From Anaerotignum propionicum DSM 1682 (GTDB lineage: Bacteria; Bacillota; Clostridia; Lachnospirales; Anaerotignaceae), in NCBI RefSeq assembly GCF_001561955.1, contig NZ_CP014223.1, positions 2,728,001-2,792,000 on the forward strand: a stretch of DNA of 64,000 nt. The letters run 5' to 3'. Below are positions 3,951 to 7,003 of this stretch, piece by piece. The notes under the pieces are model-generated. The model worked only from the letters and a program-made list of their open reading frames with translations, did no database searches and was not told the origin of the DNA. The first letter of the stretch is position 1. Each line of letters begins with the position of its first letter. A program made the translations under genes and the position numbers.

Positions 3951-5303
3951 TTATAAAACCAAGGCAGTTGCAATACTAAAGTAAATTACCAATGCAACAG
4001 CATCAACCACAGTAGAAATCAATGGTCCTGCCATCATTGCCGGGTCTAGTTTTAAAGACTTTGCTAAAATTGGAAGCAAACAACCGATGGTTTTTGCTAA
4101 AACAACCACTGCTGCCATACTTAACGATACAGAAAAATTAATCCAAAAACCTGTATCTCGATTTACCAAAGTCATTTTCAGTATATTAATTAATCCTAAT
4201 GCAACGCCACATAAAACGCCAACACGAATTTCCTTCCAAACAACCTTTAATGCATCTCTTATCTCAATTTCTCCCAAGGCCATACCACGAATAATCATTG
4301 TGGAAGCTTGTGAGCCTGCATTTCCGCCCGTACCTGTAATAATAGGGATAAACCCAGAAAGTACCACAGCCACCTCCAAAAGACTATTGAAGTGGCCAAT
4401 GACAAAACTGCTTAACGTTCCGGAAATCATTAAAACCGAAAGCCATACAATTCTGTTTTTCGCCAATACCATGACAGGAGTTTTAAGATATTCTTCATCA
4501 GATGGGATCAATGCTGCCATCTTTTCCATATCTTCCGTTGTTTCCTGCTCAATAACATCAACGATATCGTCAACGGTAATAATGCCCACCAAACGTCCTT
4601 CTGTATCCGTAACAGGCAGAGCCATCCAGTTGTATTTTTTAAAGATGTTAGCTACCTCTTCCTGATCGTCCGTGGTTAGAACAGATACAACATCATCCTG
4701 CATCAGTTCATCAATGGTATTGTCATCCGCCGCACAAATTAGTGTTCTCAATGGAACAACACCAATTAGCTTTCTCTGATCATCGATGACATAACAAGTA
4801 TAAATTGTTTCCTTATCCGTCCCCGTTCGCTTAATCTGCTTCATGGCATTTCCCACTGTCATGCTACTGTGCAGCCTCACAAACTCTATGGTCATCAAGC
4901 TTCCTGCCGAATTTTCAGGATAATTCAAAAATCGGTTAATCAGCTTTCTTGTTTCCGCATCTGTGTTACGCAAAATCTTTTTTACAAGATTTGCAGGTGC
5001 CTCTTCCAAAAAGTCCACCGTATCATCCAAGAACATCTCGTCCACAATGTTCCGAACTTCTCTATCTGTTATTGAATGAACAATGTGCTCCTGTGTATCA
5101 CTATCCATATAAGAAAAAACCTCTGCCGCCATATCTTTGGTAAGCAAACGGAAAACAAAAAGCTGTTTTTCCGCAGTCAATTCTTCAAAATACTCTGCCA
5201 CATTGGCAGGCTGTTCTGAGTTCAATTCCTCTTTTAATCGAGCATATTCCCCTGATTCCATTAATTTATTTAAGAAATCAAATAATTCCTGCATTTCCTC
5301 CAT
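3951..5303 (-). CDS. mgtE: Magnesium transporter MgtE
   Basis: The 450-residue MgtE has an N-terminal cytoplasmic helical superfamily domain (DFLEEAPANLVKKIL, residues about 90-115), a CBS pair (about 130-250) and five C-terminal membrane segments. The pore region includes TGTGGNAGSQAS and a final segment with GPLISTVVDAVALVIYF. MgtE is a Mg2+ channel gated by Mg2+ bound to the cytoplasmic domains. The frame could begin at GTG 5333, but that codon lies inside the stem of the leader terminator. ATG 5303 has GGGGTGAAG just upstream and gives the usual family length, so 5303 was chosen. The gene is monocistronic and sits behind an attenuator-type leader described separately. Confidence 0.95.
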   Translation of the reverse strand: MEEMQELFDFLNKLMESGEYARLKEELNSEQPANVAEYFEELTAEKQLFVFRLLTKDMAAEVFSYMDSDTQEHIVHSITDREVRNIVDEMFLDDTVDFLEEAPANLVKKILRNTDAETRKLINRFLNYPENSAGSLMTIEFVRLHSSMTVGNAMKQIKRTGTDKETIYTCYVIDDQRKLIGVVPLRTLICAADDNTIDELMQDDVVSVLTTDDQEEVANIFKKYNWMALPVTDTEGRLVGIITVDDIVDVIEQETTEDMEKMAALIPSDEEYLKTPVMVLAKNRIVWLSVLMISGTLSSFVIGHFNSLLEVAVVLSGFIPIITGTGGNAGSQASTMIIRGMALGEIEIRDALKVVWKEIRVGVLCGVALGLINILKMTLVNRDTGFWINFSVSLSMAAVVVLAKTIGCLLPILAKSLKLDPAMMAGPLISTVVDAVALVIYFSIATALVL

Positions 5304-5320
5304 AATCTTCACCCCGTTCC

Positions 5321-5360
5321 AATAAAAAAACACGACTTATTTTTTTCAAATTAGCCGTGT
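5321..5360 (-). terminator. Intrinsic terminator (attenuator) immediately upstream of mgtE
   Basis: Read on the minus strand, ACACGGCTAATTT pairs with AAATAAGTCGTGT (12 of 13 positions, one A-A mismatch, one G-U), with a GAAAA-type loop. TTTTTTTATT follows. The T run ends about 20 nt before the mgtE ATG, so unless it is disrupted it should stop transcription before the gene. Its 5' arm is shared with the antiterminator. Confidence 0.85.
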
Positions 5361-5429
5361 ATTATCCGAAAAAAGGCGTAAGAATCGAAGGGTCTAGTCC
5401 AAGTCATAAGGTAAACCCAAATACACGGC
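5354..5429 (-). promoter_or_regulatory. Antiterminator pairing in the mgtE leader
   Basis: On the minus strand GCCGTGTATT (5429 to 5420) is the perfect 10-base complement of AATACACGGC (5363 to 5354). The second element contains the ACACGGC arm of the terminator, so the two folds exclude each other. A smaller stem, GGGTTTA with TAGACCC, can nest between them. The first element lies inside codons 22-25 of the small upstream ORF, so ribosomes on that ORF can influence the choice. Confidence 0.7.
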
Positions 5430-5495
5430 AATATTTAACTGATACGTTCGATAACTCTCAGGTTCTAAAGGTATACTTTCGCTTTTGCCGTCCAT
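5394..5495 (-). CDS. 33-residue putative leader peptide upstream of mgtE
   Basis: ATG at 5495 is preceded by AGGTGG (5507-5502) at a six-base spacing, and the frame runs 33 codons to TAG at 5396-5394. The product begins MDGKSESIPLEPESY and ends LGLPYDLD; it has an early acidic/proline stretch (residues 8-13) and four tyrosines. It lies about 36 nt after the predicted transcription start and overlaps the 5' arm of the antiterminator. It resembles no protein family I know. The role as a cis-acting sensor peptide is inferred from position and RNA structure. Confidence 0.6.
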   Translation of the reverse strand: MDGKSESIPLEPESYRTYQLNIAVYLGLPYDLD

Positions 5496-5537
5496 TCAAA
5501 TCCACCTCAGCTTTCATAAAAAAATTAATATATACTT

Positions 5538-5566
5538 AGTATATGCTTCAAAAAATTTAACGTCAA
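5538..5566 (-). promoter_or_regulatory. Promoter of the mgtE leader
   Basis: TTGACG (5566-5561), a 17-base spacer, and TATACT (5543-5538) on the minus strand. It predicts a start near 5531 and a leader of about 230 nt. Confidence 0.8.
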
Positions 5567-5656
5567 CACCATATGAGAAATTTCTTTGAAAACTTTCAAA
5601 CTTCATCAACAAAATTCGTCATTCAGGCTGACATTTTTCCATAGTCTTAATGATAG

Positions 5657-7003
5657 TTAGTATCTCTTCAGAAAGTTTCCAAACTTAGTATATTGACCTA
5701 ACCAAGTCAAATCAACGGTACCCGTTGGGCCATTTCTTTGCTTTGCAATAATCAATTCAGCTTGATTTTTTTTCTCCGTTTCAGGAAAGTAATATTCATC
5801 TCGATAAAGAAAAGCCACAACGTCAGCATCCTGCTCAATGGCACCGGATTCACGCAAGTCTGATAGCATGGGTCTATGGTCACTTCTTTGCTCACAAGCA
5901 CGGCTTAACTGAGATAATGCAATCACAGGTGATTCCATCTCACGGGCAATTGCCTTTAAATTACGAGAAATTTCCGAAATTTCTTGTTGTCTTGAGTCCG
6001 TTCTGCCGTTGCCACTCATTAACTGTAAGTAATCAATTACGATCAGCCCCAAGCCCTTTTCCACCTTTAAACGGCGGCATTTTGAGCGCACGTCCATAGG
6101 AGAAATACCGGGGGTGTCATCAATATAAATTGGTGCTTGGGAAAGAGGTCCCATGGCACGAATCAAATCTTCCCAATCCTTATCGTTCAATTCTCCGGTT
6201 CTAAGCTTTTGCGCATCCAGCATTGCTTCTGAGCAAAGCATACGGTTTACCAACTGTTCTCGACTCATTTCCAATGAAAATACAGCTACGGGTACGTTTC
6301 CTCGAATTGCTGCATTTTGAATGATATTCAATGCAAAGGCAGTTTTGCCCATAGAAGGGCGGGCGGCAAGGAGCACCAAATCTGACTTTTGCAGTCCCGC
6401 AGTTTTTGCATCAAAATCAACAAATCCCGTAGGGACCCCTGTGAGCTTACCCTTAGAGCGGTAAATATCCTCAATTTTTTCAATGGAATCAACAGCAATA
6501 TCTCGAATATGGTGAAACTCCTCAGAATGGCGTTTCTGCATGATATCAAAGATACTTTTTTCTGCCTGATCCATAATACTGTTGATAGATTCTTTTCCCT
6601 CAAAGCTCATTTGAGAGAGATTTCCCGCCGTCCGAATCAAGCGGCGCAAAACAGATTTTTCTTCAACAATTGCCGCATAGTGACGCACATTAACAGAACT
6701 GCCCACGGCAGTGGATAGGGTTGCCAAAAAAGGCACACCGCCCACCTGCTCAAATACGCCCTTTTCTTCCAGCTTATTTTTCACTGTAACCACATCAATG
6801 GGCGATGCTTGACGATACAATTCTTCTGCTGCCTCAAAAACCATTCTATGGTCAGGGCGGTAAAAATCCTCTCCCGAAAGAATCTCAAGGGCAACCGAAG
6901 CTGCCTCTCTGTCCAAAAACATTGAGCCCAATACGGCCTGTTCCGCTGTTTCATCGTGGGGCGGCACGCCACGGATATTTTCATTTTGTTTTTGCTGTTC
7001 CAT
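5657..7003 (-). CDS. dnaB: Replicative DNA helicase DnaB
   Basis: The 448-residue DnaB family hexameric helicase unwinds DNA at the replication fork. It has the N-terminal DnaB domain (PHDETAEQAVLGSMFLD) and a RecA-like C-terminal domain with Walker A (AARPSMGKTAFAL, residue about 215), Walker B (LGLIVIDYLQLM) and the SRNLKAIARE region. The length is normal, with no intein. The start ATG at 7003 has GGAGGCGG upstream. It is the last gene of the MazG-like/gdpP/rplI/dnaB run and begins 20 bp after rplI ends, matching the conserved rplI-dnaB order of Firmicutes. Only a weak hairpin follows it. Confidence 0.97.
   Translation of the reverse strand: MEQQKQNENIRGVPPHDETAEQAVLGSMFLDREAASVALEILSGEDFYRPDHRMVFEAAEELYRQASPIDVVTVKNKLEEKGVFEQVGGVPFLATLSTAVGSSVNVRHYAAIVEEKSVLRRLIRTAGNLSQMSFEGKESINSIMDQAEKSIFDIMQKRHSEEFHHIRDIAVDSIEKIEDIYRSKGKLTGVPTGFVDFDAKTAGLQKSDLVLLAARPSMGKTAFALNIIQNAAIRGNVPVAVFSLEMSREQLVNRMLCSEAMLDAQKLRTGELNDKDWEDLIRAMGPLSQAPIYIDDTPGISPMDVRSKCRRLKVEKGLGLIVIDYLQLMSGNGRTDSRQQEISEISRNLKAIAREMESPVIALSQLSRACEQRSDHRPMLSDLRESGAIEQDADVVAFLYRDEYYFPETEKKNQAELIIAKQRNGPTGTVDLTWLGQYTKFGNFLKRY

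Follow-up and report, generated by a model that had tools for sequence, protein, structure and literature searches.

A putative ribosome-controlled transcription attenuator in the leader of the Mg2+ transporter gene mgtE of Anaerotignum propionicum and its relatives

The window analysed here is a stretch of 64,000 nucleotides (2,728,001-2,792,000) within the single-contig genome of Anaerotignum propionicum DSM 1682 (3,120,417 bases), and its subject is the leader of mgtE, a gene identified by a profile match to TIGR00400 (475.6 bits vs. a cut-off of 232.75). The upstream neighbour of mgtE is dnaB (TIGR00665), and both genes lie on the minus strand. The leader, at 5303-5566, contains a short open reading frame (ORF) and a set of competing RNA pairings. 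We propose, with a probability of about 0.64, that it is a ribosome-controlled transcription attenuator of mgtE, in which early failure of translation at low Mg2+, brought about by the nascent peptide, would switch the gene on. The features of the locus are as follows.

5538..5566, minus strand: promoter, TTGACG (5566-5561), 17 bases, TATACT (5543-5538)
5502..5508, minus strand: Shine-Dalgarno (SD) sequence GAGGTGG of the leader ORF, belonging to pairing segment 1
5394..5495, minus strand: leader ORF of 33 codons, MDGKSESIPLEPESYRTYQLNIAVYLGLPYDLD, from the ATG at 5495 to the end of the TAG at 5394
5457..5492, minus strand: codons 2-13 (DGKSESIPLEPE), conserved and presumed to act as sensor, with third-position-biased variation and, in 40/48 family leaders, [IV]P[LP]
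5485..5513, minus strand: segment 1, comprising SD, start codon and codons 2-4, the partner of segment 2 (anti-antiterminator) in the minimum free energy (MFE) fold
5401..5431, minus strand: segment 2, with core GCCGTGTATT at 5420-5429 (codons 23-26), which pairs with segment 1 or segment 3
5354..5363, minus strand: segment 3, AATACACGGC, shared by the antiterminator (as 3′ arm) and the terminator (as 5′ arm), from 2:3 pairing and covariation
5324..5360, minus strand: intrinsic terminator hairpin (3:4), with seven T residues (T7) at 5324-5330; RNAfold -11.8 kcal/mol, 3:4 covariation
5390..5418, minus strand: inner hairpin GGGTTTA/TAGACCC, spanning the stop codon within the antiterminator, from pairing and covariation
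5364..5380, minus strand: TACGCCTTTTTTCGGAT element, downstream of the stop codon and ahead of the terminator, conserved for the most part in a two-genus alignment (A1)
3951..5303, minus strand: mgtE, Mg2+ transporter, 450 residues

A preliminary description of this DNA, made from the sequence alone, had claimed the promoter, the SD sequence in front of a 33-codon ORF, and a terminator with T7 that shares the 3′ arm of an antiterminator and ends about 20 nt before mgtE; all of these are present. It had also claimed a perfect 10-base antiterminator with its 5′ arm in codons 22-25. The perfect 10-bp complement exists (GCCGTGTATT at 5429-5420 with AATACACGGC at 5363-5354), and its 5′ arm is codons 23-26. 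The promoter matches 10/12 consensus positions, and both hexamers are invariant in eight aligned leaders of the same genus. The arms of the terminator hairpin, ACACGGCTAATTT and AGTCGTGT, are followed by T7, whose end lies 20 nt upstream of the mgtE start codon (5303), and stem and T-run are conserved across the window's genus. The TACGCCTTTTTTCGGAT element, weaker in genomes G006, G071 and G031, is perhaps a polymerase pause site.

The antiterminator duplex in the window has a z-score of -4.3 (p 0.010 vs. 200 shuffled ORF tails), and the whole leader, folded without constraint to minimum energy, has a z-score of -2.8. This unforced fold shows the terminator together with a further pairing, between 5513-5485 (SD, start codon, codons 2-4) and 5431-5401. 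In these folding models the leader has four segments, in which pairings 1:2 and 3:4 compete with 2:3 in a trp-like manner. The switch scheme of the preliminary description was incomplete in this respect: the 1:2 pairing, of SD and start codon with codons 22-32, would make an untranslated leader OFF, and the ON state would need initiation followed by early failure.

Relatives of the window mgtE were examined in a family set of 58 genomes, of which 53 have mgtE. Fifty upstream regions were read from 49 genomes; one (L030), with only 86 nt of contig ahead of the match, was dropped, leaving 49 readable regions. Among the best 80 matches listed, the nearest named mgtE is that of a metagenome-assembled genome, Clostridia bacterium INTA.CYC.007 (93%), and the Anaerotignum matches are CSMAG_115 (92%), MB30-C6 (91%) and A. 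neopropionicum (88%). In 48 of the 49 readable family regions, mgtE is preceded by an ORF of 25-58 codons that opens with an SD-led ATG and encodes M[DE] at its start. Conservation of the small ORF had been suggested as a check on the preliminary description: in every one of the 48 close orthologues (mgtE with at least 59% identity) the ORF is unbroken, a count that leaves out L070, the distant second mgtE of G032 (48% identity), and dinucleotide-shuffled sets gave an SD-led M[DE] upstream ORF (uORF) in a mean of 0.38 and a maximum of 2 leaders. Within the genus, a leader-wide DNA match was found in six of seven other genomes (82-86%), the seventh (G006) carrying a diverged leader. Among the remaining family genomes, G011 has an M[DE] ORF behind its M-box (RF00380) and G023 has an M[DE] start in frame with mgtE; G009, with a distant mgtE only, stands outside the family ORF count.

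The encoded peptides share features at their N-termini. Residue 2 is D or E in 48/48; [IV]P[LP] occurs within residues 1-18 in 40/48, with an acidic residue in the preceding four residues in 39 of those 40; and residues 2-14, counting D/E2, contain 2.8 acids on average, vs. 0.6 per 13 residues in the tail. The codons of the motif vary synonymously (I/V as ATC, ATT, ATA, GTT or GTG; P as CCT, CCG, CCC or CCA). Over the 28/48 leaders that fall into gap-free alignable groups, from five genera, N-terminal variable sites are distributed 10/8/37 by codon position (37/55 at the third; binomial p 2.8e-7, a guide only, as the sites share ancestry and are not independent), and changes there are thus mostly third-position. 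The corresponding distribution for codons 22-33, taken from seven leaders in the genus of the window, is 5/7/7. A third-position bias at the start of the ORF and none in its tail argue that selection preserves the peptide at the start and that any constraint on the tail acts on the RNA. On this comparison of sequences, the N-terminal leader codons are under peptide-level selection.

Stalling for want of an amino acid would use the same architecture. Here a low level of charged tRNA, for example for proline, would stall the ribosome early and the same RNA switch would turn mgtE on; Pro is found at residues 9 and 12, and the mgtCBR leader of Salmonella contains a proline-responsive ORF, mgtP (PMC3641672; this and the other papers cited are drawn on in excerpt). 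We consider such an amino-acid attenuator quite unlikely, given that no run of at least four identical residues occurs in the 48 peptides, that Pro averages 1.6 in residues 2-14, that the invariant residue is D/E2, and that mgtE and mgtA are not amino-acid genes.

Known RNA families do not account for the leader. No Rfam family reached its gathering score in the whole 64-kb window, and RF00380 gave no match over 5200-5660 at E values up to 10, nor near mgtE in a whole-genome search, in agreement with the earlier statement that no M-box was recognised here. The M-box and other known RNAs were accordingly rejected as the identity of the leader, and matches to STnc50 (18.7 bits) and mir-263 (15.8 bits) over it, far below their gathering scores, were taken as chance. 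Among the weak DNA matches beyond the genus, seven were inspected individually: L008-L010 are real leaders, and L011 and L016-L018 are chance matches. In the three true leaders DNA similarity is limited to the ORF start, and we judged the leader RNA unalignable across all genera. An RNA-only Mg2+ sensor other than the M-box, with the ORF incidental, would fit the stability of the leader fold and the non-coding block, largely conserved, that separates the stop codon from the terminator. It would leave unexplained the third-position bias and the intact ORF and SD in 48/48 leaders, and the absence of an Rfam family at gathering score and the restriction of DNA matches beyond the genus to the ORF start also speak against it; we regard it as very unlikely.

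We then return to the proposed attenuator and its RNA switch across relatives. Terminators were called by RNAfold plus a T-run, and a hairpin was predicted in 43/48 leaders, on which the pairing tests were made. The 2:3 pairing, of ORF tail with the 5′ arm of the terminator, has z<-2 in 26/43 leaders, and the 1:2 pairing, of SD and start with the ORF tail, in 36/43. When compared with partners from other genera, the native 2:3 pairing is in the best 5% for 23/43 leaders and 1:2 for 17/43. Alignment A1 comprises 17 leaders from two genera. In it, 2:3 is paired in 93.5% of 170 cells (slid versions, 22-46%), with 18 two-sided cells (shuffles, 5.5) and a covariation of 0.356 vs. 0.213; 3:4 is paired in 89.6% of 135 cells, with 18 two-sided cells and a covariation of 0.368 vs. 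0.209; the inner hairpin is paired in 82.4% of 119 cells (covariation 0.374 vs. 0.257); and the 1:2 core, ACGGC/GCCGT, is paired in 85/85. Antiterminator and terminator pairs therefore co-vary between the two genera, a further check that had been proposed.

The architecture can be set against that of the trp attenuator, which works by a four-segment logic. Both have an SD-led leader ORF (here in 48/48), an intrinsic terminator (43/48), an exclusive antiterminator and a 1:2 OFF pairing, as judged in silico. Unlike the trp type, the 48 peptides contain no regulatory codon run and have a conserved peptide motif instead, and the core of segment 2 lies inside the ORF, in the window seven codons before the stop.

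The effect of ribosome position was modelled by masked folding, which gives the share of segment 3 in each pairing for three states, in this order: no ribosome, codons 1-15 covered by ribosomes, and the stop codon occupied. In the window's genus (eight leaders) the terminator share was 0.84/0.20/0.80 and the antiterminator share 0.03/0.68/0.06. Terminator shares were 0.78/0.22/0.76 in genus g11 (nine leaders) and 0.69/0.00/0.69 in g10 (two leaders). Over the 43 leaders, masking of early codons raised the antiterminator by a mean of 0.33, vs. 0.04 with shuffled tails; the gain was at least 0.3 in 21/43 and had p<=0.05 in 20/43 (30 shuffles each). The model predicts that untranslated and fully translated leaders are both OFF and that the ON state exists only while ribosomes remain on codons 1-15. 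The preliminary description had held that full translation favours the terminator and that early failure turns mgtE on. The first point agrees with the 0.80 obtained in the window's genus for a stop-codon ribosome. In the model, the second applies to the window leader and 7/8 leaders of its genus, where masking early codons converts terminator into antiterminator, and does not extend to every genus.

The sequence elements, their conservation, the N-terminal peptide selection and the competing pairings, all read from sequence and comparison, lead us to the following proposal. RNA polymerase would start near 5530. On an untranslated leader, 1:2 (SD and start with codons 22-32) and 3:4 would form, and mgtE would be OFF. 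Upon full translation, a ribosome at the stop codon would stand between segments 2 and 3, 1:2 would re-form behind it and 3:4 ahead of it, and the outcome would again be OFF. If ribosomes initiate and then stall or fall off within about 15 codons, segment 1 would be occupied, segment 2 would pair with segment 3, and mgtE would be ON. At low Mg2+, where 70S ribosomes lose stability, the cause of early failure would be the nascent peptide itself, in which D/E2 is followed by further acids and, in most cases, by I/V-P-L/P; intrinsic ribosome destabilization of this kind is reported for MgtL. We infer Mg2+ as the signal, transcription of the leader, and destabilization as the cause, with drop-off or stalling as the presumed mode of failure.

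Regulation might instead act at initiation, with Mg2+ stabilising 1:2 and hiding the SD, so that translation of the leader, not elongation failure, would be the regulated step. The 1:2 pairing does cover SD and start codon, and it is the pairing with z<-2 in 36/43 leaders. An initiation sensor would leave the peptide-level selection at the N-terminus unexplained, and low Mg2+ would raise complete translation, which the folding model predicts to be OFF. Its chances appear slim indeed.

By choice of the set, mgtE lies downstream in all 48 leaders, and the comparison with other transporters is a separate test of the link between the early-failure attenuator and Mg2+ (L237, a piece of MgtA, was left out, and L093 and L327 were dropped at contig ends). 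In the same family genomes, M[DE] uORFs precede 6/6 MgtA loci above the TIGR01524 cut-off (shuffles, 0.03) and one of five further above-cut-off MgtA matches, in total 7/11, from six genomes of three genera. None of 23 below-cut-off P-type ATPases with loci in the family genomes has such a uORF, and 1/30 FeoB does (shuffles, 0.72). The gene association, the peptide-level selection and the MgtL precedent make it probable that the leader peptide is a Mg2+ sensor.

The RNA logic, as folded, would respond to any early arrest, which would also suit a general translation-stress attenuator: early elongation trouble of any kind (a drug, cold, shortage of an ABC-F protein or EF-P) would turn mgtE on, and extra Mg2+ would stabilise ribosomes. 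MgtL translation responds to EttA (PMC11282234), and EF-P/EfpL reportedly help it (PMC11611912). Conservation of the early residues as peptide would be needless for a drug-only or codon-only sensor, however, and the ORF accompanies Mg2+ importers; we consider this explanation unlikely.

Several observations weigh against an Mg2+-responsive attenuator as proposed here. A strict scan of the window for terminator-like sequences reported none at this leader. There is no M[DE] uORF in the readable upstream region of L070 or in the leader of the M-box mgtE of G012, I/V-P-L/P is absent from 8/48 peptides, and RNAfold plus a T-run predicted no terminator in 5/48 leaders. The structure applied to A1 derives from a single sequence in that alignment, and most two-sided changes separate genera g1 and g11 and possibly represent few events. 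The 1:2 core shows one-sided changes only in A1 and no two-sided ones, and covariation therefore neither supports nor opposes 1:2. The antiterminator gain under masking is not significant in 23/43 leaders. L022, in the window's own genus, does not switch, nor does L064, one of two g3 leaders; g7 (six leaders) has no significant 2:3 pairing and shows no switch or a change in the wrong direction; and equilibrium folding shows no switch in g4, g8 or g9 and hardly any in g14 (six leaders; 0.70 to 0.64). Among transporters, four lower-scoring above-cut-off MgtA lack the uORF, which is found before 2/30 CorA (shuffles, 0.60; one of the two with an M-box) and 0/11 further CorA. Finally, a terminator is missing behind 22 of 30 uORFs tested outside the 48, which come from MgtA, CorA and M-box leaders and from other families.

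In a shorter transcript that lacks the 3′ arm of the terminator, the antiterminator forms in g4 (0.54), g8 (0.68) and g14 (0.75), and a kinetic switch is therefore possible in these genera. Taken together, the sequence data make an attenuator in the window leader very probable; in the window's genus and several others it appears well supported, though not in all, as g7 fails.

Outside the family, an order-level set of 60 stretches from 59 genomes was picked from 134 with a match. M[DE] uORFs were found in 13/59 of these mgtE leaders (shuffles, 0.50; maximum 2) and in 8/49 named clostridial mgtE leaders among the best 80 matches (shuffles, 1.35; maximum 4), and types outside the family include MDAGPE, MDAGSS and MDEDS. 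Leaders L092, L101, L108, L120, L128 and L132, from other families of the order, carry uORFs of the forms MD[AS]GP.. and MDVEPE.. before mgtE, and only L108 has a terminator behind the uORF. Of the 30 uORFs outside the 48, the eight with a terminator include one with 2:3 at z<-2. An attenuator in MgtA leaders and other families was thus rejected, mostly for lack of a terminator (8/30), as was CorA as a general uORF target (2/30 plus 0/11, of 48 CorA matches). With 22/30 lacking a terminator, the attenuator is a feature of the family studied here (f1), and only the uORF extends beyond it.

In the family genomes RF00380 is present in 9/58, and an M-box adjoins mgtE only in G011, G012 and G023, whose mgtE genes are distant (27-47% identity). 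An M-box followed by a uORF precedes mgtA of G021, G060 and G063, mgtA-like pieces of G062, corA of G011 and G026, and mgtE of G011; a uORF without an M-box precedes mgtA of G075, G027, G013 and G063 C5. M-boxes are found in 5/59 order-level leaders, two of which carry both M-box and uORF. The order of M-box, then SD-led M[DE] uORF, before corA, mgtA or mgtE was seen at L072, L073, L075-L077, L231, L339, L124 and L144. It is possible that such leaders contain two Mg2+ sensors. More broadly, we see an even chance that short M[DE] ORFs before the unrelated importers MgtE, MgtA and some CorA form a widespread class of nascent-chain Mg2+ sensors in Clostridia, with an intrinsic-terminator attenuator as output in the Anaerotignum family and other outputs elsewhere, several of them behind an M-box.

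The closest precedent is mgtL-mgtA of Escherichia and Salmonella. In the excerpted accounts, low Mg2+ favours ribosome drop-off at EPDP of MgtL, changing Glu2 and Asp4 makes expression of an mgtA fusion no longer detectable, full translation exposes a Rho-dependent terminator (PMC11282234), and prolines and acids make translation inefficient at low Mg2+ (PMC11552253). Like the leader described here, mgtL is a short ORF with an acidic, proline-containing start before a Mg2+ importer, and early failure means ON and full translation OFF. Unlike mgtL, the window leader has an intrinsic hairpin plus T7 that overlaps an antiterminator, in place of Rho-dependent termination; the gene is mgtE instead of mgtA; and the phylum and RNA are others, homology of peptide and RNA having been compared by eye only. 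With terminator, gene, phylum and RNA all different, and destabilization an inferred step, we have not filed the window leader as a member of MgtL.

Other leaders resemble it in part. The tandem attenuators of mgtCBR (mgtM and mgtP) and corL-corA are uORF-controlled, Mg2+-related leaders with alternative stem-loops (PMC3641672, PMC11552253), but the uORF signals reported for mgtCBR in these excerpts are ATP and proline, and peptides and genes differ. The ilvB uORF of Corynebacterium likewise combines a leader ORF, a terminator and a competing antiterminator (PMC11109978). The M-box is found in leaders of Mg2+ importers that include mgtE in the same order, but its aptamer is absent from the window leader. 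In mycobacteria, an M-box is followed by a short ORF, uORF2 (Rv1805A), with a conserved N-terminus and proline; the excerpted text describes it as mycobacteria-specific and its role as unclear, and the window leader has no M-box (PMC12810186). SRC-65-1 of Thioalkalivibrio is also a leader candidate before mgtE, but it is a structured riboswitch candidate of that genus only, with no uORF described in the excerpt; besides the M-box, it is the only published mgtE leader motif met in the literature searched (PMC11109978). For mgtE of Bacillus subtilis, control by a riboswitch is described (PMC3641672). Among the open-licence papers listed, none reported a leader peptide of mgtE in Clostridia.

If correct, the proposed mechanism would add a clostridial family to the cases in which the ribosome itself serves as Mg2+ sensor, perhaps by independent origin, and its 48 natural variants would allow the peptide requirements of destabilization to be tested directly. 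If the broader class exists, Mg2+ sensing via ribosome stability would have arisen in Firmicutes as well as in enterobacteria, and an mRNA with a stacked M-box would sense Mg2+ in two ways, through its RNA and through the ribosome. The uORFs stacked behind M-boxes also suggest a testable hypothesis on the uORF that follows the mycobacterial M-box (PMC12810186).

Tandem pairs of close mgtE genes occur in G060, G013, G063, G061, G062, G064, G027, G010, G025, G016, G030, G015 and G075, and the leader sits before the first copy wherever the upstream region is readable (that of G064 is not). At G062:C7:11449-12797 the first mgtE is split into two separate matches, as if frameshifted, and the leader ORF before it is intact. 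In the A. propionicum genome itself, the sole RF00380 match lies in L071 (C1:1835568-1838727, minus strand), where it is followed by a uORF, MDEGRSSSINPDGHSQ..., and then by a 44-codon ORF that by eye resembles the start of MgtA; the TIGR01524 matches of this genome are all below cut-off. The locus has the appearance of a truncated mgtA whose M-box has remained. Close behind it, at L071:972-1045 on the minus strand, lies a borderline match to the fluoride riboswitch (36.8 bits, cut-off 34).

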